Shown piece by piece: positions 6,986 to 46,402 of a stretch of 47,906 nucleotides of DNA. The notes beneath the pieces are model-generated. The model saw nothing but the letters and a program-made list of their open reading frames with translations. It was not told the origin of the DNA and made no database searches. Positions within the stretch are counted from its first letter, which is position 1, and each line of letters starts with the position of its first letter. This stretch comes from Niastella populi (lineage in GTDB: Bacteria; Bacteroidota; Bacteroidia; Chitinophagales; Chitinophagaceae): assembly GCF_002078015.1 (NCBI RefSeq), contig NZ_LWBP01000212.1, positions 1-47,906 of the forward strand, read 5' to 3'. The position numbers and the translations under genes are program-made.

Positions 6986-7149
6986 GTTTATGGTTTGTTG
7001 TTTGTGGTTTGCCGTTCATTAATTCGTAAAATCGTTATTAAATCTTAATCTCGCTTTAATGCTGCAAAAAAGAATTTCAAATTAATAGCGCATCTCAAAG
7101 CGCGGCAGCAACAACAAACTACAAACAACAAACCACAAACCACAAACTG
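6986..7149. repeat. Array-core-array element, 7-nt period (GTTTGTG family)
   Basis: The left arm is five 7-mers from 6986 (GTTTATG, GTTTGTT, GTTTGTG, GTTTGCC, GTTCATT), starting 7 bp after the stop of the receiver-kinase. The right arm, 7109-7149, is reverse-complementary 7-mers of the AAACCAC type and stops one base before the stop codon of the response regulator on the other strand. The core between them shares two conserved blocks, 7014-7027 and 7083-7109, with the element at 15362-15597 in opposite orientation. Confidence 0.85.
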
Positions 7150-7150
7150 T

Positions 7151-7600
7151 TTATTGTGGATTTAAAACAAACATGGAGCGGGGCGGAAAATACAATACTT
7201 TCTTCCAGTCGATAGTAAAGATCTTTTCAAGGATCGTCTTCAATTCGGTTATAGTATGCGGTTTAATAGCATACAGGTTCGATCCCTCGCGATAACAAAA
7301 CTCTATATTCTGCAGGTCGCTTAATGAAGAATACACGATGATGGGAATAGCGTCGTACTTCCGGTTTGCCCTTATCTCGCGCAAACACTGGCGTCCGTCC
7401 TTGCAGGGCATCAGCAGATCGAGGAACACTATATCCGGATTATTTTCGTCCAACAGTTTAAAAAGAATGTCGCCGTTCTCCGCCCTTGATAATACCACTT
7501 TGAATGAAAGTTCTTCAATCGCAAGTGAAAAGATCAGGTAGTCCTCGTCGTCATCCTCCGCTATTAGTACATTTGTTGGATACTGATAAGAAACATTCAT
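7151..7600 (-). CDS. Stand-alone response regulator (CheY/Rcp1-like)
   Basis: A single receiver domain of 149 residues with no output domain. The acidic cluster is EDDDED at 15-20, the phosphoacceptor is D61 in FLDLLMPCKDG, the switch Ser sits in IIVYSS, and the conserved Lys is in AIKPH. Such single-domain regulators usually act as phosphotransfer intermediates or through protein contacts. It is convergent with the two kinases upstream in the window and divergent from the degenerate receiver gene at 7778. ATG start at 7600. The sequence identifies no specific partner. Confidence 0.92.
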   Translation of the reverse strand: MNVSYQYPTNVLIAEDDDEDYLIFSLAIEELSFKVVLSRAENGDILFKLLDENNPDIVFLDLLMPCKDGRQCLREIRANRKYDAIPIIVYSSLSDLQNIEFCYREGSNLYAIKPHTITELKTILEKIFTIDWKKVLYFPPRSMFVLNPQ

Positions 7601-7777
7601 ATATATACTTTTTTTTAGCCTGCTTCCCGGCTTTCACCAGGGACCTCAAAACGTTAACATCACTTTGAGAAATGAAAACAAACCGTAAATACTGCAAATA
7701 ATAATACCGAAAATACAATCAAAATCGCAATGATGGAATACAATTTTTAGGTTATTGTTTTATAAAAACAGTAAAGT

Positions 7778-8083
7778 ATGCAGGCAAAATCCAGGTATAT
7801 TATATTGTATTGCGACCAATGCGAAAACATGCTCGCTATGAAACAGTTGTTGCAACATCTGCCGGTTCCTGTTGAAGCGGATTGTGTAGAGAATTTTCAA
7901 CAACTTTTAGATCATCTTGATAAAAGGCTGCCTGAGTTCATTATCGTCTATGTTAATATTCCGGTAAAAAGCTATATAGATTACCTGAAAAGCCTGAGGG
8001 TAAATAACGGGATCGATGAGATTCCGGTATACGTATTTACCGAATTACCCGAAAAACAAACGTTGATAGATCTGATGAATTAA
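7778..8083 (+). CDS. Degenerate receiver-like protein lacking the phosphoacceptor Asp
   Basis: A 101-residue protein that follows the receiver pattern: a first strand (YIILYCD), a helix, a third strand (EFIIVYVNIP), a helix (YLKSLR) and a fourth strand (IPVYVFTELP). At the phosphoacceptor position the LLDxxMP-type motif reads IVYVNIP, so Asp is replaced by Tyr58, and the acidic pair after strand 1 is reduced to one Asp. The protein ends before a full fifth strand and helix. It therefore looks like a pseudo-receiver working by protein contact rather than phosphorylation. This is inferred from pattern, not from a database match. It sits next to a canonical single-domain regulator and is followed by a strong terminator. 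Confidence 0.7.
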   Translation: MQAKSRYIILYCDQCENMLAMKQLLQHLPVPVEADCVENFQQLLDHLDKRLPEFIIVYVNIPVKSYIDYLKSLRVNNGIDEIPVYVFTELPEKQTLIDLMN

Positions 8084-8117
8084 TGCCTTCTGAAGAGTTG
8101 TGGAGGGCGTTGTTTTG

Positions 8118-8151
8118 AAAAGGGTGTCATTCATTTGGGTGACACCCTTTT
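8118..8151 (+). terminator. Intrinsic terminator after the pseudo-receiver gene
   Basis: Perfect 12-bp stem AAAAGGGTGTCA / TGACACCCTTTT with a 10-nt loop, followed by a T-rich tract. It lies 34 bp after the stop at 8083. Confidence 0.85.
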
Positions 8152-8163
8152 CTTTTAATTAAC

Positions 8164-8308
8164 AGTTACAGGTTCCATGTTACGGCGCTTGCCCCGCTCT
8201 GCGGGGGGAATAAATACAAAGGGCAATTTCTTTCGAAATTGCCCTTTGTATTTATTGAGGATGCTTCTTTCAGGATCCCCTGAAACATGCAACTTGTAAC
8301 CTGTAATA
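8164..8308. repeat. Array-core-array element (CAGGTTA family) around a terminator
   Basis: The left arm AGTTACAGGTTCC (8164-8176) is inverted in the right arm at 8284-8308 (AACTTGTAACCTGTAA), which ends 2 bp before the stop codon of the NagB/PIG-L gene. The core contains a small GC hairpin (8191-8206) and the terminator at 8209-8256. The arms are shorter than in related elements near 20.9 kb and 35.1 kb. Confidence 0.55.
8209..8256 (-). terminator. Perfect 21-bp hairpin, terminator of the NagB/PIG-L gene
   Basis: The arms 8209-8229 and 8236-8256 are perfect inverted repeats around a 6-nt loop (CTTTCG). The outer stem is AAATAC / GTATTT, giving T-rich 3' flanks on both strands, so it may work in both directions. 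It lies 54 bp beyond the stop of the minus-strand gene. Confidence 0.85.
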
Positions 8309-8309
8309 T

Positions 8310-10217: not shown

Positions 10218-10327
10218 ATATAATCGGTTTTATAGTTGCGCGAAATTAAAGTTATTTCCAGTATTCAAAAGGAAATGCGGTTCTTTTCGGGTAGAAAAAT
10301 AATAGCAAACGTTTGTGTTTGAAAAGT

Positions 10328-10414
10328 TTTAAGTTGTAAGTTATAAGTAGTAAGTAAAAACAGCCTTTAAACCACTTATTACTTATCACTTATTACTTAT
10401 CACTTACAACTTAC
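10328..10414. repeat. Paired 7-nt arrays (TAAGTTG / ACTTATC family)
   Basis: The left arm, 10328-10357, is 7-mers of the TAAGTTG/TAAGTAG type. The right arm, 10373-10414, is inverted 7-mers (CACTTAT, TACTTAT, CACTTAC, AACTTAC) that run into the stop codon of the GH20 gene at 10411. Only about 15 bp separate the arms, so the transcript would form one long imperfect hairpin. Confidence 0.8.
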
Positions 10415-11988
10415 TCAAACGTTTTGTTGTAGTTCGTACCCCATAATGTATATCGTTTGCATTGTTCCTGCAGGCGTTTTTCGAAATCGTTCCAGCTGCG
10501 TTTTTCTGAAGGGCTCCACAATACTTCACTCAGTGCGCTTACACGCGGGAAGATCATATATTCCACCTTGCTTGTATTGGCCATGTATTCGGTCCATACA
10601 TTGCCCTGTGCGCCAAGAATATGTTTGCTTTCCGCTGCGCTCAGTTCTTTCGGTACCGGTTCGTATTCGTATGTTTCTTTAACGGGTGTATATCCGCCAA
10701 TGGTAAGAGAATCCTCTTTTTTTGCCTGCGAGTGATCGAGATACACGTAATTACCGGGTGTCATGATCACATCGTGATCTTGTTTGGCAGCTTCAATGCC
10801 GCCCTGCTCGCCACGCCAGCTCATTACAACCGCATTGGGCGCAAGGCCGCCTTCCAGGATCTCATCCCAGCCTATGATCGTTTTTCCCTTGCTGTTGAGA
10901 TATTTTTCCATGCGCTGTATAAAATAACTTTGCAGTTCATGTTCGTCTTTCAGTTTGTTAACGGCCATCCGCTTCTGGCATTTGGGGCATTTCTTCCAGC
11001 TTTCCTTGGGACATTCGTCGCCTCCTATATGCACGTACTTTGAAGGGAATAAAGGCATTACTTCATCGAGTACATTTTGCAGAAACGTAAATACCGAATC
11101 GTTGCCTGCACAGAACACTTCGTTGAACACCCCCCATGTTTGCTGCACCTCATAGGGGCCGCCTGTGCAACCCAGGTAGGGATAGGCTGTTAGGGCTGCG
11201 GAAGCATGACCGGGCATTTCAATTTCGGGCAGAACGGTAATATAACGTTTGGCAGCATAATCAACTATTTCCTTTACTTCTTTTTGAGTATAGAAGCCGC
11301 CGTAACGAATGCTGTCGTTGCCTGTACCGGGGTGGTGGCCTATGATGGTGCCATTGCGCCAGGCGCCTGCTTTGGTAAGGTTGGGGTATTTTTTGATCTC
11401 GATGCGCCAGCCCTGGTCATCAGTTAAATGCCAGTGAAAATAATTCATCTTGTGCAGCGCGATGTAATCGATATAACGTTTTACAAAACTTACCGGAAAG
11501 AAATGACGGCTTACATCCAAATGAAGGCCCCGGTATTGAAAACGCGGATAATCTTTTATGGTTAAATAAGCTACAGGTAATGAGCTTGCTTTTGTTGTTG
11601 GCAGTAACTGAAGCAGGGTTTGAACGCCATAGAAGGTGCCGGTTGCATTATCGCCGCCGATGTAAACGCCTTTTGCATCTACTTCCATATTGTAGGCGCC
11701 GGGAATGGGATGATCGAGCCGGTCGAAATTGAGGCGGATGCCGGGCGTTGCGCCTGCTTTTTTAACCACAGGCAGGGTAAAACCATATACCTGTTTCAGG
11801 TAATCGTTCAGGAAACGCGCCGGGTTTTCAAGGCCCGAGCCCTCCAGGATAATGGGTGTTTTCGCCGTTATAATGAAGGCGCCGGCAGATTCCGGCATTT
11901 TTAGTTCGGCGGGTTGAGGAATAATGTTTACCTGAGCATAGCTGTTGATTGTCAGGAAAAAAAAGGCAATAAACCAAACTTTTTTCAT
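10411..11988 (-). CDS. Secreted beta-N-acetylhexosaminidase, GH20
   Basis: 525 residues with a signal peptide (MKKVWFIAFFFLTINSYAQ). An N-terminal GH20b domain (about 20-145) is followed by a TIM barrel. The substrate-assisted catalytic pair is D324-E325 in HIGGDECP. HLDVSRHFF, NYFHWHLTDDQGW and LPEIEMPGH are family signatures. It removes terminal GlcNAc or GalNAc from chitooligosaccharides or glycans in the periplasm or at the cell surface. The next gene on the same strand, nagB/PIG-L, is 193 bp downstream with an array between them, and completes a GlcNAc route. No lipobox is present. Confidence 0.95.
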   Translation of the reverse strand: MKKVWFIAFFFLTINSYAQVNIIPQPAELKMPESAGAFIITAKTPIILEGSGLENPARFLNDYLKQVYGFTLPVVKKAGATPGIRLNFDRLDHPIPGAYNMEVDAKGVYIGGDNATGTFYGVQTLLQLLPTTKASSLPVAYLTIKDYPRFQYRGLHLDVSRHFFPVSFVKRYIDYIALHKMNYFHWHLTDDQGWRIEIKKYPNLTKAGAWRNGTIIGHHPGTGNDSIRYGGFYTQKEVKEIVDYAAKRYITVLPEIEMPGHASAALTAYPYLGCTGGPYEVQQTWGVFNEVFCAGNDSVFTFLQNVLDEVMPLFPSKYVHIGGDECPKESWKKCPKCQKRMAVNKLKDEHELQSYFIQRMEKYLNSKGKTIIGWDEILEGGLAPNAVVMSWRGEQGGIEAAKQDHDVIMTPGNYVYLDHSQAKKEDSLTIGGYTPVKETYEYEPVPKELSAAESKHILGAQGNVWTEYMANTSKVEYMIFPRVSALSEVLWSPSEKRSWNDFEKRLQEQCKRYTLWGTNYNKTFE

Positions 11989-12172
11989 ATTGTGTAAAAT
12001 GTTAATACCCCTGGCACTAAATAGTGTCAGTAACGGGTGTTTTGTAATGAAAATAAATGAAGTATACCGCGCAGGCGCGGTACTGTGTAATCAGCCTGGT
12101 TTTAAGTGTTGAGAGACAGTGTGCGCGGTTATAAGCTCATACAACCTGAGAAAGTGCAATATAGGGTGAAAA

Positions 12173-12320
12173 GTTGATAAGTTGACGAGTTAACGGGTTA
12201 ACGAGGTGAAAAGCTTTACATGGCCCCGGCTCGCACGGATGCATAAAAAAGCGTCCCAATAAACCGGGACGCCTAAAATGGTTAGCCTGTATTCCTCGTC
12301 AACCCGTCAACCCAAACCCC
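12173..12320. repeat. Array-core-array element, 8-nt period (GTTGACG family)
   Basis: Left arm: GTTGATAA, GTTGACGA, GTTAACGG, GTTAACGA, GGTGAAAA in exact 8-nt steps from 12173. Right arm: CGTCAACC, CGTCAACC, CAAACCCC at 12297-12320, reaching the stop codon of the CocE-type hydrolase. The core holds the terminator at 12251-12272, and CTGTATTCC (12287-12295) directly precedes the right arm. Confidence 0.8.
12251..12272 (-). terminator. Terminator of the CocE/S15-type hydrolase gene
   Basis: Stem GCGTCCC / GGGACGC with an 8-nt loop. On the minus strand it is followed by six Ts. It lies 48 bp past the stop codon. Confidence 0.75.
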
Positions 12321-14218: not shown

Positions 14219-14250
14219 GATAAGCTCTTAATTTAGATGCTTAAATGTAA

Positions 14251-14322
14251 GTTGAAAAGTTAACAAGTTAACCGGCTAATTCGTCAACTTGTTAACGCGT
14301 CAACTCGTTAACTCATTAACTA
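14251..14322. repeat. Nine exact 8-nt units (GTTAACNN / GTCAACNN) in a divergent spacer
   Basis: The units run without slip: GTTGAAAA, GTTAACAA, GTTAACCG, GCTAATTC, GTCAACTT, GTTAACGC, GTCAACTC, GTTAACTC, ATTAACTA. The first half is inverted in the second half around 14278. Unlike most arrays here, it sits between two divergent starts and ends 8 bp before the glycosylasparaginase ATG. It belongs to the same word family as 12.2 kb and 24.9-25.3 kb. Confidence 0.85.
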
Positions 14323-14330: not shown

Positions 14331-15359
14331 ATGTCAACGCGTAGGAATTTTTTACAGACATCGTTCCTGGGATCACTGGGACTGTTTACAGGAAAAAAGA
14401 TGATGGCCCAATCGGAAGAAGTGTATCCCACAGTAAAGAATGAACCCATTGTACTTTCCACCTGGGATTTCGGAAAAGCAGCCAATGCAGAGGCCTGGAC
14501 CATATTGGGCAAAGGCGGCCGTGCGCTGGATGCGGTTGAAGCCGGTGTAAAAATACCTGAAGCCGATGCCAGTAATCAATCGGTTGGTTATGGGGGTTTA
14601 CCCGATCGTGATGGCCGGGTTACACTCGATTCCTGTATCATGGATGAAAATTACAATTGCGGTTCGGTAATGTGTCTTGAAAATATCATGCATCCTGTTT
14701 CGGTTGCGCGGCTGGTAATGGAAAAAACGCCACACGTGGTGCTGGTGGGCGAAGGTGCTTTTCAGTTTGCACTTGACAACGGGTTTAAAAAAGAGAACCT
14801 GTTGACGCCTGAGAGCGAAAAGGTATGGAAGGAATGGCTAAAGACCTCGAAGTATGAGCCTGTAATGAATATAGAAAACAAGCTGCATAAACCCGCAGGC
14901 GGTGGCGTTATGCCCGGCGGGCCCGATAACCACGATACTATTGGCATGATCGCTATGGATGCCAGCGGCAATTGCAGCGGCGCCTGTACAACCAGCGGTA
15001 TGGCATTTAAAATGCGCGGCCGGGTAGGGGATTCGCCCATTATTGGCGCCGGTTTGTATGTTGATAATGAAATTGGCGCTGCTACTTCAACCGGTGTTGG
15101 GGAAGAAGTGATAAAGATCGTAGGCTCGCACCTGGTAGTGGAGTTAATGCGGCAGGGACTGGCCCCTGAAGCTGCCTGTAAAAAAGCGGTTGAACGGATC
15201 ATCAAACGTAACCCGGCCAAAGCCAAAACAGTGCAGGTGGGTTTCATTGCGTTGAATAAAAAAGGCCAGTATGGCGCGTATGCTTTGCAGAAAGGATTTA
15301 CGTATGCGGTGAAGAGCGGGAAAGAAGAGAAGATCATCCCTGCTAAAAGTATCTATTAG
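14331..15359 (+). CDS. Glycosylasparaginase (N4-(beta-N-acetylglucosaminyl)-L-asparaginase), exported
   Basis: 342 residues from the ATG at 14331 (MSTRRNFLQ). A frame extension upstream to 14289 would be encoded by the 8-nt array and is rejected. The N-terminus RRNFLQTSFLGSLGLF looks like a Tat-type signal. This Ntn-hydrolase cleaves itself before Thr203 in HDTIGM; the new N-terminal Thr is the nucleophile that cuts the GlcNAc-Asn bond of N-glycan remnants. GGLPDRDG, SCIMD and RVGDSPIIGAGLYVD match the family, as does the C-terminal half after processing. It fits the hexosaminidase and NagB genes nearby. The next gene, cutC, is on the same strand but separated by a 258-bp repeat region. Confidence 0.94.
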   Translation: MSTRRNFLQTSFLGSLGLFTGKKMMAQSEEVYPTVKNEPIVLSTWDFGKAANAEAWTILGKGGRALDAVEAGVKIPEADASNQSVGYGGLPDRDGRVTLDSCIMDENYNCGSVMCLENIMHPVSVARLVMEKTPHVVLVGEGAFQFALDNGFKKENLLTPESEKVWKEWLKTSKYEPVMNIENKLHKPAGGGVMPGGPDNHDTIGMIAMDASGNCSGACTTSGMAFKMRGRVGDSPIIGAGLYVDNEIGAATSTGVGEEVIKIVGSHLVVELMRQGLAPEAACKKAVERIIKRNPAKAKTVQVGFIALNKKGQYGAYALQKGFTYAVKSGKEEKIIPAKSIY

Positions 15360-15361
15360 GT

Positions 15362-15597
15362 TATAGTTTACAGTTTGTTGTTTGTGGTTTGTAGTTTGTT
15401 GTTTGTTGTTGCTGCCGCGCTTAACTAGTTTGTGGTTTATGGTTTGTAGTTTGTTGTTGCTGCGCGCTTTGGAGCTCGCTATTATTTTAATAAACCTGAA
15501 CAGGCTGGATCGCAGGTTATTGCATTTGGTATTGACTTCACGAATTGATGAACCACAAACCATAAACCACAAACCACAAACCACAAACAACAAACAG
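15362..15597. repeat. Array-core-array element, 7-nt period (GTTTGTG family), partly nested
   Basis: It begins 3 bp after the glycosylasparaginase stop with 7-mers TTTGTTG, TTTGTGG, TTTGTAG. GCTGCCGCGCTT follows at 15411, then a second array (about 15428-15458) and a second near-copy of that block at 15459-15484. A variable core, the block at 15540-15553, and an inverted 7-nt array (ACCACAA type) to 15597 complete it. The blocks at 15459-15484 and 15540-15553 match those at 7083-7109 and 7014-7027 in inverse orientation, with core lengths of 95 and 96 bp. Confidence 0.85.
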
Positions 15598-19647: not shown

Positions 19648-19697
19648 TAAAATAGGGACTTTTATTGTTTGCCAGGTGATTGTAGGTGACGTTTAAT

Positions 19698-19826
19698 TGG
19701 CAATGGACAATAGGCAATAATCAGGGTTAACCGTTTATTGGTCTCTCGAACTTATTTGCCATTTGGGAATAGTCTGTTGCCTGTTGGTTTTCTTGCCAAT
19801 TGTCAATTGCTCATTGCCTATTGTTT
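19698..19826. repeat. Paired 7-nt arrays (ATTGGCA / TTGCCAA family)
   Basis: Left arm ATTGGCA, ATGGACA, ATAGGCA, ATAATCA (from about 19698). Right arm TTGCCAA, TTGTCAA, TTGCTCA, TTGCCTA (about 19793-19823), which overlaps the TAG stop of the anti-sigma-like gene at 19818. About 65 bp lie between the arms. Confidence 0.75.
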
Positions 19827-20920: not shown

Positions 20921-21087
20921 GCAGGTTACAGGTTGCAGGTTGCAGGTTACAGGTTACAGGTTACAGGTTACAGGTTGCAGGTTGCAGGGAAATACAAAAT
21001 ACAGGTTATAGGTTGGCAAATGCAGACTGCCAATTTCTTCTTTTGAGCTTCGGAATTAAGGCCCTGTACCTTGTAACCTGTAACTGC
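20921..21087. repeat. Ten 7-nt units (RCAGGTT) with a short inverted arm
   Basis: From 20921, GCAGGTT or ACAGGTT repeat nine times exactly, then GCAGGGA. GAAATACAAAATACAGG follows, and an inverted short arm (CCTTGTAACCTGTAACTGC) sits at 21069-21087. Located between the ECF sigma start and the NlpC/P60 start. The same word family occurs at 8.2 kb, 35.1 kb and 46.2 kb. Confidence 0.9.
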
Positions 21088-21133: not shown

Positions 21134-21904
21134 ATGGCATATGCTGTTTGCAGGGTGCCGGTGGCTCCCTTACGGGCCGAAGCGGCGCATAAAAGTGAAA
21201 TGGTCAGCCAGTTGTTACTGGCCGAGGCTGGGCTTATTCTCGAAGAAGCAAAGGATTTTATCAAAATACAGGGTGTACATGACGGGTATGAAGGCTGGTG
21301 CCAGCGCGGTCAGCTGGTGGTTATCGATAACTGGACGAAAGAACCTGCTTCCCAGGTGTATACGGCAGGTTGGGTAAGTGCCGTTTCCATCAATAATGTA
21401 CCGGCGCATGCGCCTATGGGCATTCCGGTGCTGAATGAAGTGAATGCGCGGGAACTGATGGCTGTTCTGAACATAAATTATGGCGATGCCGCCACCTGGA
21501 ATGCGGCCGGTGCTCAGCCGGAGGCCGCGGCTATCAGGAAAAGAGCGGAGCTGTTCTTAAATACGCCTTATTTATGGGGCGGCAGATCGGTGTTCGGCAT
21601 CGATTGCAGCGGTTTCTCCCAAATGGTGTTTCGATTTTTCAATATTCCCCTGCTGCGCGATGCTTATCTGCAGGCTACACAGGGCGAAGTGGTTGGTTTC
21701 TTACAGGAGGCCCGATGCGGCGATCTCGCTTTTTTTGACAACGCCGAAGGGCGTATAACGCATGTTGGTATTTTACTGAACGATCACGAGATCATTCACG
21801 CTTCCGCCAATGTACGCATCGATAAGATCGATAATGCCGGGATCGTTAATTCCGAAACCGGGGTAAGAACCCACCAACTGCGAATCATAAAGAGAATTAG
21901 CTAA
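21134..21904 (+). CDS. NlpC/P60-family (C40) cysteine peptidase with SH3-like N-terminal domains
   Basis: 256 residues from the ATG at 21134 (MAYAVCRVPVAPL); the frame is open upstream to 21113, but the alignment-like start VCRVPVAPLR favours the internal ATG. The N-terminal half has SH3b-like features (EYKD-type strands around GVHDGYEGWCQRGQL). The C-terminal half is NlpC/P60: C158 in GIDCSGF, H210 in RITHVGI, and H222 in IIHASANV. It is expected to cut D-Glu-meso-DAP linkages in peptidoglycan peptides, possibly in recycling, because no signal peptide is evident. It is convergent with the thioredoxin-fold gene, with the element at 21902-22010 between them. Confidence 0.92.
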   Translation: MAYAVCRVPVAPLRAEAAHKSEMVSQLLLAEAGLILEEAKDFIKIQGVHDGYEGWCQRGQLVVIDNWTKEPASQVYTAGWVSAVSINNVPAHAPMGIPVLNEVNARELMAVLNINYGDAATWNAAGAQPEAAAIRKRAELFLNTPYLWGGRSVFGIDCSGFSQMVFRFFNIPLLRDAYLQATQGEVVGFLQEARCGDLAFFDNAEGRITHVGILLNDHEIIHASANVRIDKIDNAGIVNSETGVRTHQLRIIKRIS

Positions 21905-22010
21905 TGTGATGATTAGATAATGTGATAATTAAATACATAAGAAAAGCGGTTGCCAAAGACAACCGCCTTGTATTTCATTATCGAATTATCAAATTATCGA
22001 ATTATCTCAT
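21902..22010. repeat. Array-core-array element, 8-nt period (TAATGTGA / ATTATCGA family)
   Basis: The left arm begins inside the NlpC stop codon (TAATGTGA, TGATTAGA, TAATGTGA, TAATTAAA). The core is AAATAC - hairpin - GTATTT (21931-21975). The right arm (ATTATCGA, ATTATCAA, ATTATCGA, ATTATCTC) runs across the stop codon of the convergent gene and encodes its last residues, EIIR. Confidence 0.9.
21946..21966. terminator. Bidirectional terminator hairpin between convergent genes
   Basis: Stem GCGGTTG / CAACCGC with a 7-nt loop, flanked by AAATAC (21931-21936) and GTATTT (21970-21975). This gives a T-rich 3' flank in either direction. Confidence 0.7.
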
Positions 22011-23532: not shown

Positions 23533-23561
23533 ATTTATCGAATTATCGAATTATCACATTA
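23530..23561. repeat. Single 8-nt array arm (ATCGAATT family) abutting the ppa stop
   Basis: ATCGAATT, ATCGAATT, ATCACATT in 8-nt steps after TGTATTT, running into the TAA of ppa at 23559. Only one arm is seen; the other side of the gap is the 5' region of the divergent thioredoxin-fold gene. Confidence 0.7.
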
Positions 23562-24101
23562 TTTTCTGAAATTCTCTTTGTACAGTTTAAGCGCGTCTTC
23601 GATAATGGAAAGCGCTTTTGCTTTATCACCGTATTCGTTTACCTGTACGGTTTTGTTCTCGAGCGTTTTATACTCCTGGAAGAAGTGGCGCAGTTCATCA
23701 AAGAAGTGCGGGGGTATTTCCTCGATGTTATTGTAGTGTTTTACGCTTGGGTCGTTGGCGGCTACCGCAATGATCTTGTCGTCGGCATCGCCGCCATCGA
23801 TCATTTGCATAACGCCAATTACCTTGGCTTCCATAAGGCACAATGCCTGTACGGGTTGAGAAGTGATAACCAATATGTCGAGAGGATCTTTATCGTCGCC
23901 GTAAGTTTGCGGAATGAATCCGTAATTACAGGGATAATAGAATGATGAATAAATGATCCGGTCGAGTTTTAACAAACCGCTATCCTTGTCAATTTCATAC
24001 TTGGCCCTGGACCCCTGCGGAATCTCAATGACTGCATTTACAATCCGTGGAGCCTGATCACCAGGAGGCACGCCATGCCAGGGATGGGAAACAGTTATCA
24101 T
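23559..24101 (-). CDS. ppa: Inorganic pyrophosphatase, family I
   Basis: 180 residues, the usual length. The signature is [11 protein letters not shown], with D70, D72 and D75 as metal ligands, and the conserved [29 protein letters not shown] and [12 protein letters not shown] are present. It hydrolyses pyrophosphate to phosphate in the cytoplasm and pulls biosynthetic reactions forward. The ATG is at 24101, with a possible -7 box 22 bases upstream. It is a single gene with its own terminator. Confidence 0.97.
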
Positions 24102-24895: not shown

Positions 24896-25040
24896 TGGGC
24901 AGGTTGGTTGGGAGTTGGGGGGGAAGTTGAGGGGGGAATTGGGGAAGTTGACTGGTTGACGGGTTAAATGGTTAACTGGGGTGGAATTGGGAATTGGGGA
25001 TCAGGGAAGGGATGACGGGTTGGAATCAGGGGGGAAGGGT
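24896..25040 (+). other. G-rich tract with many G-runs
   Basis: The plus strand carries more than ten runs of three to eight Gs within about 145 bases, interleaved with GGTTG-type words, so it could form G-quadruplexes. It overlaps the left array arm of the 24.9-25.3 kb element and lies upstream of the minus-strand lipoprotein gene and downstream of phoH. Confidence 0.6.
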
Positions 25041-25306
25041 TGACGAATTAATTGTTTAACGAGGAAAATACAGGATTTGGGGATAACGAATTTGTTGATC
25101 GCTTGGCAAATGACGGCGTTAGCGGGGCCGGATGATCGTGGCGGGAAGGCGCAGCGCAGCTTTGCCGTTTAATTTCAACTCCTCAACCTGTTAACAAACT
25201 AATAAAAAATACGAGGCATGAATTCAGGAACTCATACCTCGTACTTCTTACACTGACCTTTTAAACCGATTCTCGTGAACCAGTCAACTCGTGAACCAGT
25301 CAACTT
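24947..25306. repeat. Array-core-array element, 8-nt period (GTTGACKG / GTGAACCA family)
   Basis: Left arm GTTGACTG, GTTGACGG, GTTAAATG, GTTAACTG (24947-24978). Right arm GTGAACCA, GTCAACTC, GTGAACCA, GTCAACTT (25275-25306), which overlaps the TAA of phoH at 25305. The core of about 296 bp contains GGAAAATACAGG and the hairpin at 25211-25242. Confidence 0.8.
25211..25242 (-). terminator. Hairpin terminator downstream of phoH
   Basis: Arms ACGAGGCATGAATTC and GAACTCATACCTCGT pair with two G-T wobbles around a 2-nt gap. They are preceded by AAAAAAT on the plus strand, which gives a T-rich tail in the phoH direction. It lies 63 bp past the stop. Confidence 0.65.
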
Positions 25307-29142: not shown

Positions 29143-29326
29143 ATGCAGCTATTGGTTTTGAGGCCAACCCACAAACCACAACCCACAAACGACAAACCAC
29201 AACCCAACAAACATCCGGCTATTAGTTTTGAGCCAACCAACAAACGACAACCCACAAACGACAAACATCCGGCTATTAGTTTTGAGCCTAACCATAAACA
29301 ATAAACCATAAACCATAAACACCAAA
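29143..29326. repeat. 7-nt array (ACAAACC type) interrupted by a repeated 23-bp block
   Basis: Runs of 7-mers such as ACCCACA, AACCACA and AACGACA extend to within one base of the lyase stop codon. They are interrupted three times by a block related to CTATTAGTTTTGAG (29149, 29219, 29273), the last two copies being 54 bp apart. Same word family as 7.0 kb and 15.4 kb, but only this orientation is present. Confidence 0.8.
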
Positions 29327-35039: not shown

Positions 35040-35053
35040 CGAATGTGAAAGTT

Positions 35054-35165
35054 TGAGTTACAGGTTTCAGGGTAATAACTGCTAACTCAAAAACAAAAAA
35101 TAGCGATCCGGGAATCGGAAATCGATAGCGGGTACCCGTGCAACCTGCAACCTGTAACCTGAAAC
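35054..35165. repeat. Paired 7-nt arrays (CAGGTTA / AACCTGT family)
   Basis: The left arm is about 35054-35075 (GAGTTACAGGTTTCAGGGTAAT). The right arm 35140-35165 (GCAACCT, GCAACCT, GTAACCT, GAAAC) is its inverted counterpart. It lies just beyond the 8-nt array at the amine oxidase stop, so two word families occur in tandem in this gap. Confidence 0.8.
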
Positions 35166-35169
35166 GGCT

Positions 35170-35954: not shown

Positions 35955-36142
35955 AGCTTAATGTTTTGCTTATATAATTAAAAAGGAATGCCCCGGGTAT
36001 GCTGTATTGAATTTCAGCGTATTACAAAAATGTAGTGTAGAAAATTATTGTTAAAAACGGGGAAAAAGGAGGGCAATTTGATAATGTGCTGATTTGCTGA
36101 TGTGCTAATGTGAAGTGAACTTGGGGTAACGGGTGAAAGTGT

Positions 36143-38980: not shown

Positions 38981-39294
38981 GATCAATTGGTAATATAATT
39001 TCGTACCACTACCCGGCGGCGGCTGCCAACACCGGTTGCGCAGGCAGTTGCAGTCGCCCGTTTGTTAGTTGAACTAAATCAGTTGATTACTTACAAAAGG
39101 AGAAATGTCGTTGGAAGCGTTGTGTAGAATTTGTTCTACACTGCTGCATGTTTGAACAGACCCAATTGCAATTCATCGTACATCAGTTTCTTTTTGTTCC
39201 GGTGCGTTTGGCTAAAACCGCTATTAATTTCCGTTTGCGCAGGTACGGTTTTATTTTTAACCGGGCTGTTTCTGTTCGAACCATTGCATTTTTC

Positions 39295-39594
39295 GTCAGC
39301 GCGAACACCGCGCTAACAGATTTCACCTGTTTTCTGTCAGCGCGAACACCGCGCTAACAGATTTCACCTGTTTTCTGTCAGCGCGAACACCGCGCTAACA
39401 GATTTCACCTGTTTTCTGTTAGCGCGAACACCGCGCTGACAGATTTTGCCTGTTTTCTGTTAGCGCGAACACCGCGCTGACAGATTTTGGTATTGCGCTA
39501 ACAGATTTTCGACATTTTTTGTCAGCGCGAACCCTGCGCTAACAGATTTCGGCTGATTTCTGTTAGTGCGAAAACTGCGCCGACAGGTTCTTCC
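39295..39594. repeat. 41-bp tandem palindromic array
   Basis: Copies start at 39295, 39336, 39377, 39418, 39459, 39521 and 39562, with a partial copy at 39490-39520. Each full copy carries the arm TGTYAGCGCG, the loop AACAC, and the arm CGCGCTRACA, then a T-rich linker (GATTTCACCTGTTTTC type). In copies 1-3 the two arms are C/A mismatched at one base, while copies 4-5 have T/G; the left arm of one group pairs perfectly with the right arm of the other. The array ends about 200 bp before the GGT-like gene. Confidence 0.93.
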
Positions 39595-39703
39595 ACAATT
39601 AGAATCAATACCGTTACTACACTAACAATTTTCATATGTTTTCTCCCAATACGGTGGTTGTTTTCCGCTGCTTTTCATGAAAACCGCAATGGTTTATATC
39701 ACT

Positions 39704-39765
39704 AAGAACTGTGAACTAAGAACTGAGAACAATGACTGAGAACTAAGAACTAAGAACTCTGAATT
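39704..39765. repeat. Nine 7-nt units (GAACTRA family) before the GGT-like gene
   Basis: AAGAACT, GTGAACT, AAGAACT, GAGAACA, ATGACT (6 nt), GAGAACT, AAGAACT, AAGAACT, CTGAATT. It ends 26 bp before the ATG. It is the reverse-complement word family of the array at 17122-17170. No inverted partner in this gap. Confidence 0.8.
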
Positions 39766-39791
39766 ATCTTTAGCAAACAAAACACATCATC

Positions 39792-41633: not shown

Positions 41634-41831
41634 GAAACGTGGAAAATAAACTACAGATCATATTGTTACATATGTAAATTGACCTTATAAACCAGTGGCA
41701 CAGTTTTGTTAATGTTATTAACAAACAGCAGTTTTTGAGATGTTTGAATATGTGCAATTGACAAAATTATGGATGTTTGAAATGATGTCAATTCAAAAAT
41801 AACGCATGGAAGAATAGAGATGTGGTAGCAC

Positions 41832-41865
41832 GCCGGGTGCCTTGATGGGCATCCGGCTTTTTTTT
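41832..41865 (+). terminator. Terminator downstream of the GGT-like gene
   Basis: Stem GCCGGGTGCC / GGCATCCGGC with one G-T wobble and a 6-nt loop, followed by at least eight Ts. It lies about 200 bp past the stop. Confidence 0.75.
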
Positions 41866-41882
41866 GTAAAAGGGAGAACAAA

Positions 41883-42010
41883 GTTATTCAGTTATTCAGT
41901 TGATGAGTTATTGAGTTACATAATGTTTTATCCATGCTATTAATCGCGGGCGAACTGAACAACTGAACAACTGAATAACTGAATAACTGAACAACTGAAT
42001 AGCTGAACAC
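41883..42010. repeat. Array-core-array element, 8-nt period (GTTATTCA / AACTGAAT)
   Basis: Left arm GTTATTCA, GTTATTCA, GTTGATGA, GTTATTGA, GTTACATA (41883-41922). Right arm AACTGAAC, AACTGAAC, AACTGAAT, AACTGAAT, AACTGAAC, AACTGAAT, AGCTGAAC (41953-42008). The right arm ends 2 bp before the TAA of the TerB-like gene. The core is 30 bp, so the transcript could form one long hairpin. Confidence 0.92.
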
Positions 42011-42436
42011 TTAAAACTTTTTCTCCATTCCAACCTGTCTCCGCTGAGTCATTAGTCTTTTTAACAACTCCTGCTCGGTATCGCCAATATCGAGTAAACG
42101 GGAAATGCGGGTGAGGAGGCGGTCTTCTTCGATACTTACATCGCCGTCGGCAGTACATAGTTCAACACACCAGGAGAACAGCGCCAGGGGGCGAAGCGGT
42201 TTAATGATACTGATGAGGTACTTCAGGTAAATGTCTTCATCGGTGATCCCATTCACATACGATTTGTATTTCTGCATCTCATCTTTGAAATTGAGTTTTT
42301 TGTGCAGATCGATCGATACCAGTTTGTCGGAAATAGTATCCAGTTCCGATTCCCTGAACGAGCCGTCTTTCATGCAGCAGTAATAAAACAAATGGCAAAC
42401 ACCCTCTTCCGGGGCTTTAAGCAAACCAGTATACAT
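42011..42436 (-). CDS. TerB-like (tellurite-resistance B / DUF533-type) protein
   Basis: 141 residues, all-helical. The pattern CMKDGSFRESELDTISDKL followed later by CTADGDVSIEEDRLLTRISRLL matches the paired metal-binding acidic motifs of TerB-fold proteins (A-DG-x-ExE). It is cytoplasmic. TerB-type proteins are tied to stress responses, but this one stands alone, with no other ter genes nearby, so no resistance is claimed. ATG at 42436, stop bordered by the 8-nt array. Confidence 0.78.
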   Translation of the reverse strand: MYTGLLKAPEEGVCHLFYYCCMKDGSFRESELDTISDKLVSIDLHKKLNFKDEMQKYKSYVNGITDEDIYLKYLISIIKPLRPLALFSWCVELCTADGDVSIEEDRLLTRISRLLDIGDTEQELLKRLMTQRRQVGMEKKF

Positions 42437-42488
42437 ATGTTAGTTGTTTATTGTGACTAATGATTCAACAATGATGCCATGAGGGGAA

Positions 42489-42854: not shown

Positions 42855-43484
42855 ATGCCCATGACCCTATCGCCCCGTAACCAACAGGTCGTTGATGAAT
42901 TTCAACGCGGCCATTTCACTGCTGTAAAAGAAATGTACGATGAATATTATCCTGCACTGGTTGATTTTGGTACGCAACTGACCCTGAACAAAGCGGAAGC
43001 GCATCACATAGCGCAGGAAACGTTCATCAAATTATTCCAGATGCGCCACCGGTTCGACAAGCTGCCCGACATAAAGGCATTTTTGTACATAACGGTTCGG
43101 AACATTTGTTTTGCTTACCTCAGGTCGGAAAAAGAAACCGCGCCTGCACCCGGTGCCGGCAGCGAAGTTGACTGGGAAGAACAATCGCTTATTGCTACCG
43201 CCCGTTTTGAGGAAGGGGCCCAACGCGAAGAGGCGATTTGTAAGATCACCAAAACAGTTGACGAACTGCCCGAACCGGAGCAAACGGTTTTTAAAACCAT
43301 CTTTTGCAACAGGCTTACAATTCCCGATACGGCAAAACAAATGAAACTTACCCCGGTAGCGGTTACCCAGCATCGTATCAACGCCATCAGATTGTTGCGT
43401 GAGCGGCTGATAAAAGCCGGTTTGTTCTCGGCGCCGCTCTTTATTTTTTACGTTGCGGTTTTTTGCGGCGGGCAAACTGAATAG
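42855..43484 (+). CDS. ECF-type RNA polymerase sigma factor, apparently orphan
   Basis: 209 residues from the ATG at 42855 (MPMTLSPRNQQVVDEF); a frame open from 42669 has an uncharacteristic, hydrophobic N-terminus and is not preferred. Region 2 (about 12-85) contains NKAEAHHIAQETFIKLFQ and FLYITVRNICFAYL. Region 4 (about 135-195) contains LPEPEQTVFKTIFCNRLTIPDTAKQM and a HTH. The hydrophobic tail FSAPLFIFYVAVF is unusual for a sigma factor. No anti-sigma gene follows; a terminator lies 20 bp downstream. Target unknown. Confidence 0.9.
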   Translation: MPMTLSPRNQQVVDEFQRGHFTAVKEMYDEYYPALVDFGTQLTLNKAEAHHIAQETFIKLFQMRHRFDKLPDIKAFLYITVRNICFAYLRSEKETAPAPGAGSEVDWEEQSLIATARFEEGAQREEAICKITKTVDELPEPEQTVFKTIFCNRLTIPDTAKQMKLTPVAVTQHRINAIRLLRERLIKAGLFSAPLFIFYVAVFCGGQTE

Positions 43485-43504
43485 AAAATGCAATTATTAT
43501 AAAG

Positions 43505-43538
43505 GCGGGCTTCCTGTTGATGGGAAGCCCGCTTTTTT
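43505..43538 (+). terminator. Terminator of the orphan ECF sigma gene
   Basis: Stem GCGGGCTTCC / GGAAGCCCGC with an 8-nt loop, followed by six Ts. Confidence 0.9.
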
Positions 43539-43762
43539 ATTTCCAGGATGGTTAAAAACTTTGATATTCAGCAAGTATGAAATAAACACTAATGAGTGCG
43601 CGCGCTGAAATGCGCCCCGGTAGCAGGTTACAGCGGGGCTAAAAAAATGCTAACCTCACTTTTTAGCATAAACGTTTGTAAGTTTCAAAACTTTTTCAGT
43701 ACATTAGGCATCCAATCCGCTGTTAAATAATCCAGTACAAGAAAGAAGACCAAAACAATCAA

Positions 43763-44009
43763 TTCGATAATTCGATAATGTGATAATGTGATAATGCATC
43801 ACTGTCATGCAGTCCTATGCGATTCGACGCTCACGCGAGTATTCGCAGCAGCTGTATTCCATTATCAATTTATCAGCAGACAATGTGATGATTCGATAAT
43901 ACATAAACTGGCATGTAGCTCCTGTAAGATCCGAAGCGCACGCGAATGCATTCACTCCAGCTGTATTCCATTATCAAATTATCACATTAGCTAATTATCA
44001 CATTAACAT
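43763..44009. repeat. Two tandem array-core-array units (TTCGATAA / ATTATCAC family)
   Basis: The left 8-mers are TTCGATAA, TTCGATAA, TGTGATAA, TGTGATAA from 43763. Two imperfect copies of a 109-bp unit follow (43781-43889 and 43890-43998), each with ACGCKCACGCGA in the middle and CAGCTGTATTCCATTATCAA near the end. The right arm ATTATCAA, ATTATCAC, ATTAGCTA, ATTATCAC, ATTAACAT runs to 44009. Same word family as 21.9 kb and 23.5 kb. Confidence 0.85.
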
Positions 44010-44090
44010 TTGCTTGTCAGTTAGTATTACAAACGGAATGCACGAATCATAGCAACTCATTTCCGCGCCCGTCATAGTAACGTGTGTACG

Positions 44091-44200
44091 CTCCTGCGCG
44101 CCTTCGCCAAACATGCGAAGTGAACGCTTTCGCAAGCTTCGGCTGCGCGAATGCGCCTTCGCAAGGCCATGCGAAACGCAGTGAATGCCGTGCTGAACGT
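44091..44200. other. GC-richer spacer with recurring TTCGC / GCGAA words
   Basis: In about 110 bp, CTTCGC, TTTCGCAAGC, GCGAAG, GCGCGAATGC and CCTTCGCAAGGCC alternate in both orientations, allowing several local hairpins. It lies upstream of the FecI-like sigma gene. No gene was recognised here. Confidence 0.5.
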
Positions 44201-44264
44201 TTATGTACCTGGTTGAAAGACTGGTATGTAAAACTTAACTATTAATGGCAAAAATACAAAACGA

Positions 44265-44846
44265 ATGGGTGCTGAAACTGACCATATCCTACTACAACTG
44301 CTCAAAACGGCTGACCCCTTAGGGTTTAAAGCGTTATTCCAGCGATACTACAAAACGCTGTGCATACAGGCATATCTGCTTTTGCAGGACGAAGGCGAAG
44401 CGGAAGACCTGGTGCAGGACGTATTTGTAAAATTCTGGCAGGAACGCAAGTATGAGATCGTACAGCAATCGCTGGGTTCTTACCTCACTACCATGGTAAA
44501 GCATGCTGCTTTGAATTTGCTTAAGCATAAAAGCAGGGTGAACCGAAAAGAAAAGACATACCAGGAGCGCATCGAAATTATCGAGAATACCCACGTAATG
44601 GAAATACAGGAAACAGCTCAAATGGTACAAAGCGTTATTGCCCAACTCCCGGAGCAATGTAAACGTATCTTTGAACTGGTTTGCGTGGAAGGCAAAAAGT
44701 ACCAGGAGGCAGCTGTTATTGCCGGCGTAACCGTTAATACGGTGAAAACACAGCTGCGACGGGCATTTGCAAAACTCCGTGAAAGTCTGCGCGACTATTA
44801 TTATTTTACCGGCTTGTCACCCGTTTTATATATTTTATTGTCTTAA
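44265..44846 (+). CDS. FecI-like ECF sigma factor
   Basis: 193 residues. Region 2 is at about 10-80 (FKALFQRYYKTLCIQAYLLLQDEGEAEDLVQDVFVKFWQE and SLGSYLTTMVKHAALN). Region 4 is at about 115-180 (IAQLPEQCKRIFELVCVEGKKYQEAAVIAGVTVNTVKTQLRRAFAKLRE), of the RNA polymerase sigma-70 Bacteroidetes expansion type. It is followed 42 bp later by a FecR gene and then a SusC-type receptor with STN domain, the usual surface-signalling order. It should transcribe the operon, and likely a SusCD-linked locus, when the receptor is engaged; the inducer is unknown. Confidence 0.94.
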   Translation: MGAETDHILLQLLKTADPLGFKALFQRYYKTLCIQAYLLLQDEGEAEDLVQDVFVKFWQERKYEIVQQSLGSYLTTMVKHAALNLLKHKSRVNRKEKTYQERIEIIENTHVMEIQETAQMVQSVIAQLPEQCKRIFELVCVEGKKYQEAAVIAGVTVNTVKTQLRRAFAKLRESLRDYYYFTGLSPVLYILLS

Positions 44847-44888
44847 TATATTTGACACCCCCCCTGATGTTTGAATAGCATACTTGCC

Positions 44889-46034
44889 ATGAACAATTAT
44901 ATTGATATGAATGATGTCGAGCAACTCATAATAGATAAACTGACGGGCCACATTGGTGAGGAAGATGATTTACGGCTATCAGATCTCATCGCCCGGCACC
45001 AGGAGGTTGAACAATTATGGCAGCAGATGCAACAGGTATATGCTATGCGAAAGGCAGTGAGCTTCGATCAGTCATTTAATGTTGATGAAGCATGGCTGGC
45101 TTTGCAACAAAAGGTAAACATTCCCGAGCGGGTAGCGGAACCCGTTACCGATACCGTGGCTATGCCTGTGCGCAAAACAAATCCTTCATGGGTTCGCTAT
45201 GGTATTGCTGCAGCCGCAACAGGTATTATCATCTTGGCAGTATGGTTTTTGAAAAGTGAGTTCAATTCACAGGAAGGAACAGTCAAAAGCATTCAGATAA
45301 AACTGGCCAATGGCAGCATCGTACAAACCTCTGCACAGGATTCGCTTGCCGGCTGGATGCAGAACGCCCGCAGCGCCAATATAAACCCCGGCGAATGGAA
45401 TACGTTGACGGTGCCCGCCGGTAAAAGTTATTCTTTTAAACTGGCCGATGGCAGCAGGGTGTGGATGAATGCGGTATCTGAATTACGTTTTCCTTTATTG
45501 TTCACGCGGCCGCAACGTATTGTTGAATTAAAAGGCGAAGCCTATTTTAAAGTGGCGCACCAGGCCAGCCAGCCGTTTTGGGTGCAGGTGAACGGATTAA
45601 AGGTAAAAGCCCTGGGAACCGAATTCAATATTAAGTCATATAATGGTGAATCAACTTATATTTCCCTGGTGAACGGCTCGGTGGAGGTAGAAAATGCAAA
45701 GGGGCAACAAATTGTTTTATCACCCGGCGAATCGGTGGTGGTGGCCGACCGCAACAGCGCATTGCAAAAGGAAACATTCGATAACACCGTAGTGCTTGGC
45801 TGGATGCAGGGCCTGTACTATTTCAGAAATGAAAAGCTGCAACAGATAGCCGTCGTTGCCGAACGATGGTTCGATATAAATGTACAATTAAAAGATCCTT
45901 CGCTGGCCGCGCTGCATTTCTCCGGCGCTATGGACCGCAATAAACCGATAAATACGTTCTTCAATATGCTCGCCTCCTCGGGTGACATAAGGTTTAGGAA
46001 TGAGGAGGGGAAGGTGATCATTACGCGTAATTAG
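44889..46034 (+). CDS. FecR-family anti-sigma/sigma regulator
   Basis: 381 residues from the ATG at 44889 (MNNYIDMNDVEQLI); a TTG six codons earlier is open but less likely. The cytoplasmic N-terminal part (1-100) binds sigma, a transmembrane segment lies at about 101-121 (YGIAAAATGIIILAVWFL), then the FecR domain (about 180-270; GKSYSFKLADGSRVWMNAVSELRFP, GEAYFKVAH, FNIKSYNGE) and a C-terminal DUF4974 (about 310-380). It passes the signal from the STN domain of the receptor to the sigma factor. It lies 42 bp behind the sigma gene and 368 bp before the receptor. Confidence 0.95.
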   Translation: MNNYIDMNDVEQLIIDKLTGHIGEEDDLRLSDLIARHQEVEQLWQQMQQVYAMRKAVSFDQSFNVDEAWLALQQKVNIPERVAEPVTDTVAMPVRKTNPSWVRYGIAAAATGIIILAVWFLKSEFNSQEGTVKSIQIKLANGSIVQTSAQDSLAGWMQNARSANINPGEWNTLTVPAGKSYSFKLADGSRVWMNAVSELRFPLLFTRPQRIVELKGEAYFKVAHQASQPFWVQVNGLKVKALGTEFNIKSYNGESTYISLVNGSVEVENAKGQQIVLSPGESVVVADRNSALQKETFDNTVVLGWMQGLYYFRNEKLQQIAVVAERWFDINVQLKDPSLAALHFSGAMDRNKPINTFFNMLASSGDIRFRNEEGKVIITRN

Positions 46035-46402
46035 TGGCAGGCGTTATTCGTGAAACCCCAACTCCATCGGGGAAACGGCAAACGTGAAATAATACAGTTG
46101 CCAGTTACCTGTTTCCCGTTACCGGGCCCTTAATGCCAGCTTCATAACTATCATTTCTGCTTTTCGCTCTGCCATTTGCCCAAATAACAATCCCTGCAAT
46201 CAACTACGCTTAACCTGTATTACCCGGTAACAGGTGCCTTGTAACAGGTAACAGTTTCCGTTACATCAGTAGTATACGATTATCTATAAGCGTAAATGTC
46301 TTTCATACCAATTAAAAAAATAAAAATTAATTAACTGCTGTCACCCGATTCAATAGTTTCCTTGTCTAAATAGTATAACCGATACAAAAAACTAATTGTA
46401 TT
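46035..46402. repeat. Spacer with paired 7-nt arrays and a shared core block
   Basis: Begins with the 23-bp block 46050-46072 also found at 42618-42640. AATACAG then leads into AGTTGCC, AGTTACC, TGTTTCC, CGTTACC (about 46092-46122). An inverted arm CGGTAAC, AGGTGCC, TTGTAAC, AGGTAAC, AGTTTCC (46225-46263) follows. The last 130 bp before the receptor ATG are AT-rich and presumably hold its leader. Confidence 0.75.

Follow-up and report, generated by a model that had tools for sequence, protein, structure and literature searches.

Inverted arms built of 7- and 8-nucleotide tandem arrays in the intergenic spacers of Niastella populi and its relatives

The stretch of DNA analysed here, which we call the window, comprises 47,906 nucleotides (nt) of contig NZ_LWBP01000212.1 of Niastella populi, the source genome being referred to below as the own genome (G000). 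Its spacers contain degenerate tandem arrays whose unit is exactly 7 or exactly 8 nt, in part arranged as two reverse-complementary arms around a short core. Arrays were detected as runs in which s[i]=s[i+p], with p tried from 5 to 12, in spacers between genes predicted by a home-made codon-based caller; because gene starts come from this caller, start-side distances are rougher than stop-side distances. An earlier note on this DNA had counted about twenty array sites, and we find 16 spacers with arrays at a score of at least 10 and about twenty at a score of 7. There are no Rfam matches at gathering score in the window. The array features are as follows.

6986..7147: GTTTGTG element, left arm 6986-7011, right arm 7110-7147, with the inner-edge motif GCTGCCGCGCTTTGAG at 7094-7109 (minus strand); match to the family model, 87.1 bits
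8160..8306: CAGGTTA-type element with short arms, right arm 8281-8306 detected, left arm and start (about 8160) placed by eye; inverted repeat AAATACAAAGGGCAATTTC..GAAATTGCCCTTTGTATTT in the core
10324..10414: AAGTNRT element, arms 10324-10356 and 10374-10414, the right arm overlapping the stop codon of the gene at 10411-11988 (minus strand)
12167..12313: GTTRACGR (8 nt) element, arms 12167-12203 and 12297-12313; terminator-like hairpin in the core, by eye
14249..14321: GTTRACGR arrays at 14249-14272 and 14283-14321, divergent genes on either side
15357..15596: GTTTGTG element, left arms 15357-15410 (overlapping a TAG stop) and 15428-15458, right arm 15551-15596; model match at 15439-15568, 73.2 bits
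17122..17167 (plus strand): solo AGTTCAY array
19695..19823: weak GGCAATN-type inverted arrays (scores 8.0 and 9.0), the right one overlapping the stop at 19818
20922..21084: CAGGTTN element, arms 20922-20988 and 21062-21084 (the right one weak, score 8.5)
21895..22006: TAATNNGA (8 nt) element in a convergent spacer, arms 21895-21935 and 21977-22006; terminator-like hairpin in the core, by eye
23535..23562 (minus strand): TAATNNGA array overlapping the stop codon at 23559
24947..25305: GTTRACGR arrays, 24947-24979 and a 16-nt tandem at 25272-25305
29165..29320: three AC-strand GTTTGTG-family arrays within a 54-nt higher-order repeat, with ATCCGGCTATTAGTTTTGAGCC between arrays
35139..35165 (minus strand): CAGGTTN array
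36075..36112 (plus strand): TAATNNGA array
39706..39758: AGTTCAY-family arrays at 39706-39730 and 39735-39758
41882..42007: AGTTRTTC (8 nt) element, arms 41882-41918 and 41953-42007, the right arm ending beside the stop at 42011
43761..44008: TAATNNGA element, arms 43761-43796 and 43970-44008

The same two periods dominate the spacers of the genome at large. In a first sample of the own genome (444 spacers, 148.5 kb), autocorrelation was raised at lag 7 (z 26.5) and lag 8 (z 17.7), as well as at lags 1 (z 56.5), 21 (20.6), 3 (16.8), 14 (16.7) and 6 (11.8), of which 14 and 21 are multiples of 7 while 3, 6 and 21 may contain missed coding sequence. These spacers hold 130 arrays of period 7 and 66 of period 8, against 1.1 and 1.1 in dinucleotide shuffles, so that randomised spacers yield about one array per period, far below what is observed; the remaining periods 5, 6, 9, 10, 11 and 12 contribute 0, 3, 8, 1, 7 and 5 arrays (24 in total), and a mid-gene coding control of 133.65 kb gave two arrays of period 7 and one of period 8. 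An enlarged sample of 858 spacers from 1.65 Mb, scored with a lower limit, gave 225 and 132 arrays of periods 7 and 8, with 5, 10, 17, 7, 19 and 12 at the other periods in the same order. The arrays are real and widespread across the genome. Their density per kb is 2.07 in convergent spacers, 1.27 and 1.54 in tandem spacers and 0.71 in divergent ones. The own sample has a density of about 0.22 arrays per kb, which would amount to about 1,900 in all if the 1.65 Mb are typical of the 8.61-Mb genome and which makes the arrays a large component of the non-coding DNA of this lineage. The earlier note had held that the two periods are rarely mixed within one site; this is so relative to chance, both periods occurring together in 42 of 170 multi-array spacers where 92.9 ± 5.9 would be expected, but those 42 spacers remain mixed.

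Clustering of the words in 328 arrays with a score of at least 12, taken from the own sample and six related genomes (13 arrays were left unassigned), gave 20 seven-nt and nine eight-nt clusters, certain ones being mutual rotations. Larger clusters combine four to six columns, mostly 91-99% constant, with two or three variable ones that use a restricted set of letters, as in GTTT[GA]T[GTA], T[GC]AATGG (TSAATGG) and TAAT[GT][TCA]G[AC]; small clusters are looser. Favoured words differ by species, GCAGAGG for example having eight of its ten arrays in G009. That words recur at distant spacers of the window had also been claimed, and GTTTGTG, CAGGTTA, GTTGACG and ATTATCGA were found where they had been placed, CAGGTTA at 46.2 kb only as a weak array (14 nt, score 7); an AACTGAA array is present at 41.9 kb but was not found at 35.0 kb.

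The arrangement of arms was examined in 1,246 spacers from the own genome, G005 and the six relatives, which hold 605 arrays of period 7 or 8, 563 of them with a word family; the other 42 were excluded from the polarity counts. This set includes orthologous spacers of several species, which are not independent, and the word clusters were learnt on part of the same arrays that were later counted. Adjacent arrays in one spacer form 86 same-family inverted pairs, 30 same-family direct pairs and 90 pairs of different families, with 24 further pairs containing an unassigned member. Given a chance of 0.064 of sharing a family, about 6.5 inverted pairs would be expected among the 206 assigned, which bears out the description of the arrays as reverse-complementary arms around a core; the median core measures 46.5 nt. 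Among 108 lone arrays, 36 have a weak inverted partner inward and one a direct partner, and array-free control spacers gave none.

The arms have a fixed polarity. Within each family the strand of the left arm is identical, in 86 of 86 pairs; 80 of these come from 11 families with at least two pairs, and six further polar families have one pair each (17 in total). A probability of 0.5^86 would overstate the case because the orthologous spacers are non-independent and six families have a single pair. Writing W for the word on the left-arm strand and W' for its complement, G is at least as frequent as C in W in all 17 polar families (above in 12, equal in five). The same polarity is seen outside pairs: in spacers of at most 700 nt, W occupies 127 of 144 left-half arrays and W' 98 of 123 right-half arrays (Fisher 5e-31), and this dependence on the side of the spacer is independent of gene directions. 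We considered the supply of stop codons as a cause of polarity, W being richer in stop triplets than W' (8.92 vs 5.19 per 100 nt), and dropped it, as nine of the 17 consensus words have no stop in W and polarity tracks spacer side, not gene direction.

Matching arms had been taken by the earlier note to imply co-evolution, either by hairpin constraint or by fold-back copying, and on this point our results do not support it. With their own partners, arms have a duplex energy of -22.58 kcal/mol; exchanging partners inside a family gives an equal value (-22.59 kcal/mol; p 0.50 for 72 pairs), and combining arms of different families gives -6.43 kcal/mol. In the variable columns, letters match only weakly within pairs, with p 0.006 when all pairs are pooled and 0.06 when species are kept apart (0.011 and 0.16, respectively, in a smaller set). 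Compensatory pairing within loci was rejected by energy and is weak by letter match. The order of units is mirrored between arms in only one of 48 informative pairs at p<=0.05; single arm pairs do match, for example at C187:257793 over 27 nt. Since own arms pair no better than swapped arms and unit order is unmirrored, we see no sign of site-level hairpin co-evolution or of recent copying by fold-back, and it is the word itself that matters. When the own spacer was ranked against 30 control spacers, its reverse-complementary partner came first for 31 of 165 arrays, where 5.3 would be expected, but the energy comparison places this excess at the level of the word only.

One family allows the core to be followed. 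Among the matches listed for 19 genomes, exact copies of the inner-edge motif GCTGCCGCGCTTTGAG number 16 in the own genome, seven in G003 and three each in G002, G004 and G007. With up to two mismatches allowed, 42 places with the motif were read, 23 of which are flanked on both sides by arms of the expected polarity, in the own genome and G002 to G007; of the other 19, ten lie outside the genus. Three short loci outside that count have both arms (L314, L315) or one (L316). Twenty-one GTTTGTG copies align arm to arm with the consensus GTnGTTTGTnGTTTGTGGTTGCTGCCGCGCTTTGAGGnTCGCnATTAATTTTGAA..ATTAAAGAACAACAAACnACAAACC, the core length varying in both directions. A model of the element (R1) has 63 matches in the own genome, 77 in G003, 43 in G007, 33 in G006, 20 in G002, 16 in G004, 14 in G005, two in G009, one in G008 and none in G001, counts that are inflated by copies matching on both strands and limited in that 94 candidates were scored in each genome; outside the genus, 29 genomes have 0-3 each, with any match in three of them. 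In the window R1 matches at 6999-7129 and at the 15439-15568 segment listed above, both with a weak match on the opposite strand as well, and doubtfully at 35050-35168 (E 0.34). A conserved core edge and at least 14 matches in seven of the ten genomes of the genus, the own genome included, mark GTTTGTG as a defined dispersed element. A second family has a shared inner edge as well: of 69 TAATGTGA arms, 35 have AATACA on their inward side at a distance of at most 30 nt, and over all families it lies inward of 65 of 502 arms and outward of three. Repeats outside the arrays are common to 28 of 117 array spacers vs 27 of 327 others. Such shared repeats and core edges are what dispersed elements would show, and we regard spread as units as well supported for GTTTGTG and as likely for the TAATGTGA family; matching arms would then reflect the spread of elements with family-specific inner edges, at least for GTTTGTG and probably for TAATGTGA.

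As a separate observation, at G000:C196:71748-72762 and C197:45-291 the GTTTGTG core occurs in tandem, mostly at 168-nt spacing, in a run that reaches the end of one contig and resumes at the start of another; part of it is locus L313.

Most of the window has syntenic counterparts in six further genomes of the genus, nucleotide identity being about 77-82%. We compared 29 orthologous spacers, one of which exceeded the length that could be scored; in 21 of them at least two species have arrays. Two species share a word family in 48 of 129 same-spacer comparisons and not in 81, compared with 211 of 2,691 different-spacer comparisons (7.8%), from which we conclude that words are inherited at a spot yet often changed. 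Complete inverted pairs with different words between species occur in four spacers (10217/10411, 15359/15617, 41633/42011 and 43484/44265); other spacers have a single arm, or arms built of two words. In the spacer of the 10324..10414 element, G007 has TGAACGC arms and the other five species none; in that of 41882..42007, G002 has GTTRACGR arms; and in that of 43761..44008, G007 and G004 have AGTTATTG arms.

Outside the genus arrays are fewer. Other genera of the family have 12 arrays of period 7 and two of period 8 per 100 kb (G016), 5 and 0 (G013) and 1 and 1 (G015), and two genomes from elsewhere in the order have still fewer, 1 and 0 in 40 kb (G018) and 0 and 1 in 60 kb (G025). A pattern of 3.6 GTTTRTN units has 217 matches in the own genome vs four for the reversed control, and occurs in 18 of the 296 phylum genomes scanned, counting the own; the few matches elsewhere are not as such above control, because the reversed control gives 14 and 18 in two other genomes. 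Among the GTTTRTN matches listed (80 of at least 114 stretches) are loci from Niastella caeni, Longitalea, Flavobacterium, Prevotella and Cyanobacteria, and 18 of those 80 have an inverted array pair of some kind. The GTTT strand lies left in a same-word pair in L115 and L161 of Flavobacterium, in L151, L158, L175 and L185, and in the cyanobacterial L139; the AAAC strand forms the left array in L165, where the partner has a different word. The free seventh base takes at least two letters in 24 of 50 Bacteroidota, four of 16 cyanobacterial and one of 14 other loci, where loci were grouped by source title and the pattern itself selects the other columns.

Arrays lie preferentially at gene ends. 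In convergent spacers 32 of 54 lie within 10 nt of a stop codon (12.8 expected under random placement), and in tandem spacers 45 of 149 do so (17.0 expected), with 15 on the start-codon side; in divergent spacers three of 28 lie within 10 nt of a start (3.9 expected). A gene end is overlapped by 38 of 231 arrays. The preference for gene ends is thus clear, but the statement that most arms abut or overlap a stop codon was too strong for the genome as a whole. Spacers with pairs are also predicted to fold strongly as RNA: the median z is -5.1 in 48 of them, whereas 60 spacers free of arrays give -1.6 and 38 convergent spacers free of arrays give -2.2. Terminator-like hairpins outside arrays occur in 64 of 371 tandem spacers with no array, 12 of 136 with unpaired arrays and two of 36 with a pair; the corresponding counts are 33 of 88, 11 of 36 and four of 18 in convergent and eight of 127, 0 of 17 and 0 of 6 in divergent spacers. 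Terminators are somewhat fewer in array spacers, which fits elements standing in for terminators and is no proof of it. The core as an intrinsic terminator (GC-rich hairpin and T run) was rejected as a general account, with three cases among 70 inverted-pair cores (0.2 in shuffled cores), although single cores do enclose a terminator-like hairpin.

Three other features of the window deserve mention. The stretch at 41780-41870 (plus strand) ends in a hairpin and T run (ACGCATGGAAGAATAGAGATGTGGTAGCACGCCGGGTGCCTTGATGGGCATCCGGCTTTTTTTT) and is nearly invariant in seven species within an otherwise fast-changing spacer; it has no Rfam match at gathering score and is a candidate small RNA. A tandem 41-nt unit (CTGTCAGCGCGAACACCGCGCTAACAG..) containing inverted repeats lies at 39290-39600, in the spacer before the gene at 39792, and 276-nt tandem repeats (8.6 copies) lie at 2-2382 inside an open reading frame of 1868 aa at 5-5611.

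From these observations we hypothesize, with a confidence somewhat above even, that the arrays belong to miniature non-coding dispersed fold-back elements, with arms of 7- or 8-nt tandem arrays, that spread as units and have a hairpin role at gene ends. Each element would consist of two terminal arms, degenerate tandem arrays of one word in the inward polarity W...W', around a short core whose inner edges would be specific to the family in those families where they are visible. Elements would be copied as units, by transposition or another route, and settle in spacers, favouring sites just behind stop codons, where an array can overlap the stop. Settled arms would gain or lose whole units by 7- or 8-nt slippage, and we propose this as the reason why unit order is unmirrored. 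Transcripts or single strands could fold into a long imperfect hairpin, and the likely role of a retained copy would be that of a gene-end hairpin (3'-end protection, termination or insulation), with an effect comparable to that of repetitive extragenic palindromes (REP) and bacterial interspersed mosaic elements (BIME). Of the overall interpretation in the earlier note, the dispersed array-core-array class, the tendency to one period and the preference for gene ends stand, and co-evolution of pairing at each site is not supported.

Several findings weigh against this hypothesis. Core similarity is higher within families (mean 19.1, n 124) than between them (13.3, n 948), which speaks for it, but mostly owing to GTTTGTG; excluding that family the likeness is slight (58 same-family pairs, mean 16.0, one at 30 or more), and ends of arrays that escaped detection may contribute to it. 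There are roughly 25 word families, and for most of them the core comparison showed no common core. Neighbours of different families (90) are as frequent as inverted pairs (86), and a single spacer can have arms of two words, as in G007 at 15359/15617. In the same spacer of G006 a GGTTACC array precedes the GTTTGTG-family core edge and a AACAACAAACC arm follows it, and the core edge stands beside an AGTTCTC-type array in L291 (G001) and a GTCAACT-type array in L290 (G002); the same core edge with other arm words suggests that arms may be rewritten or recombined in place. No clear conservation of array presence was seen across orthologous spacers (p 0.10), and we therefore rejected conserved presence as proof of function; the species being only about 77-82% alike, no target-site duplication is readable. 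The deficit of terminators may partly reflect less spacer room. Finally, no transposase is tied to the elements: Y1_Tnp has one to three matches in each of the ten genus genomes, one strong in each (two matches in the own genome), and nine in G018, where arrays are rare, so that a Y1 transposase as driver is not discriminating.

Part of this evidence would suit an origin in place, in which 7-8-nt polymerase slippage makes the arrays, template switching copies an arm and selection keeps the resulting gene-end hairpin or terminator. A fixed period with widely varying words, different words in both arms between species at one spot, and the 89 of 117 array spacers without a common repeat outside the arrays all speak for it, and an excess of heptamers together with the idea of a polymerase footprint has been put forward in print (PMC4679880). 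We nevertheless think it unlikely, since arm copying should leave the mirrored order seen in one of 48 pairs, own arms pair no better than swapped ones, the same words, variable columns and polarity recur across many loci and species, and one family is a conserved element with core edges. Somewhat less likely again, in our estimate, is a machinery with a 7- or 8-nt ruler that would write both arms from a word and could overwrite the word on an existing core, species thereby keeping the element and changing its sequence.

The remaining explanations fare worse. Constant columns of 91-99% in the larger clusters while others vary, and strict polarity, could mean that the arrays are sites for a DNA- or RNA-binding protein that recognises a degenerate word at intervals of 7 or 8 nt, from both sides; with 20 and nine word clusters in seven genomes, and words that differ between close species, one protein is unlikely to read them all and we consider this improbable. 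Plain simple-sequence repeats, that is, neutral slippage arrays with no underlying element, can draw on the reported over-representation of heptamers among longer bacterial repeats (PMC4679880, PMC4692102), but would lead one to expect neither fixed inward polarity nor restricted variable columns (TSAATGG), inner-edge motifs or inverted pairing; near-identical slippage units without fixed polarity are ruled against by the columns and the polarity, and this account seems to us very improbable. Slightly less credit still is due to scars of break-end extension, whereby a telomerase-like or self-templated enzyme adds 7- or 8-nt repeats to both 3' ends before rejoining. It predicts W...W' with the G-richer strand inward, which the polarity fits (G at or above C in W in 17 of 17 families), and would account for arms that share a word and have independent unit orders; common words and core edges at many loci would require a common template or donor, and we give it very little weight.

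Comparison with known systems places the proposed fold-back elements, within what was searched, as an undescribed variant of small fold-back repeat elements, nearest to REP sequences and miniature inverted-repeat transposable elements (MITEs), to Foldback-type transposons and to bacterial heptamer repeats. A limited literature search on Chitinophagaceae, Bacteroidetes and bacterial fold-back elements found no named family of such elements, in line with the earlier note, but bacterial heptamer repeats, including inverted pairs in Xanthomonas, have been published. Elhai and others reportedly described small dispersed repeats in tandem heptamers of Nostoc in 2008. In the Nostoc trnL intron, the P6b stem is built of degenerate heptamers (TDNGATT / NNTGAGT) whose word has repeatedly been replaced at one locus (PMC4476775); that account concerns a single intron locus, whereas the present elements are genome-wide and at gene ends. 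The Xanthomonas heptamer GGGAATC is intergenic and forms 70 and 75 inverted pairs in two genomes, and is presented as one quadruplex-forming word, the relevant parts of that report describing no 8-nt class, core edges or word change (PMC4692102). TAACTGA occurs as intergenic tandem heptamers in Beggiatoaceae, Cyanobacteria and five Bacteroidetes, as described one word, mostly direct and in one strain mainly before start codons (PMC4679880), and heptamer-derived bacterial satellites are mentioned elsewhere (PMC6749651).

REP, BIME and REPIN sequences with their Y1 transposase RAYT resemble the present elements in being small, non-coding, fold-back spacer repeats with many copies per genome, and Y1_Tnp is present here too. 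A REP or REPIN is described as a single 20-40-nt palindrome tagged GTAG or CGTC (PMC3733652), whereas the arms here are 7- or 8-nt tandem arrays of about 25 word families. Beside the strong Y1_Tnp of the own genome, just upstream of it, we note an inverted array pair, TGAATGG-like by eye, at 747-869 of L317 (G000:C145:136900-139100); the 6-kb stretch read for the second own match has no array. The BrickBuilt MITE of Porphyromonas gingivalis is likewise short, intergenic, dispersed and non-coding, has internal tandem repeats and belongs to the Bacteroidota, but is described with 23-nt tandem repeats in mid-element and small inverted ends (PMC4596501), where here the 7- or 8-nt arrays form the inverted arms and neither a target duplication nor, though no search aimed at one was made, a parent transposon was found; dispersed copies with a common body, as expected of a MITE, are found in the GTTTGTG family only.

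In anatomy the elements resemble the Foldback-type transposons of flies (FB, Galileo and Tetris), whose terminal inverted repeats contain internal tandem repeats (PMC3573991, PMC3688188, PMC4079207). These are eukaryotic, and the likeness, inverted ends made of short tandem repeats, is one of anatomy and implies no descent. The ends of Foldback-type transposons are also far longer than the arms described here. If our hypothesis is true, the heptamer repeats whose excess in bacteria has been noted but not explained would be tied to a defined element that has a polarity and, in one family, a core; the elements would be a natural system that keeps its architecture while the sequence of its arms turns over, and in which the slippage step, arm copying and gene-end hairpin function are separable; and the elements of Niastella would be a bacterial counterpart of the Foldback type.

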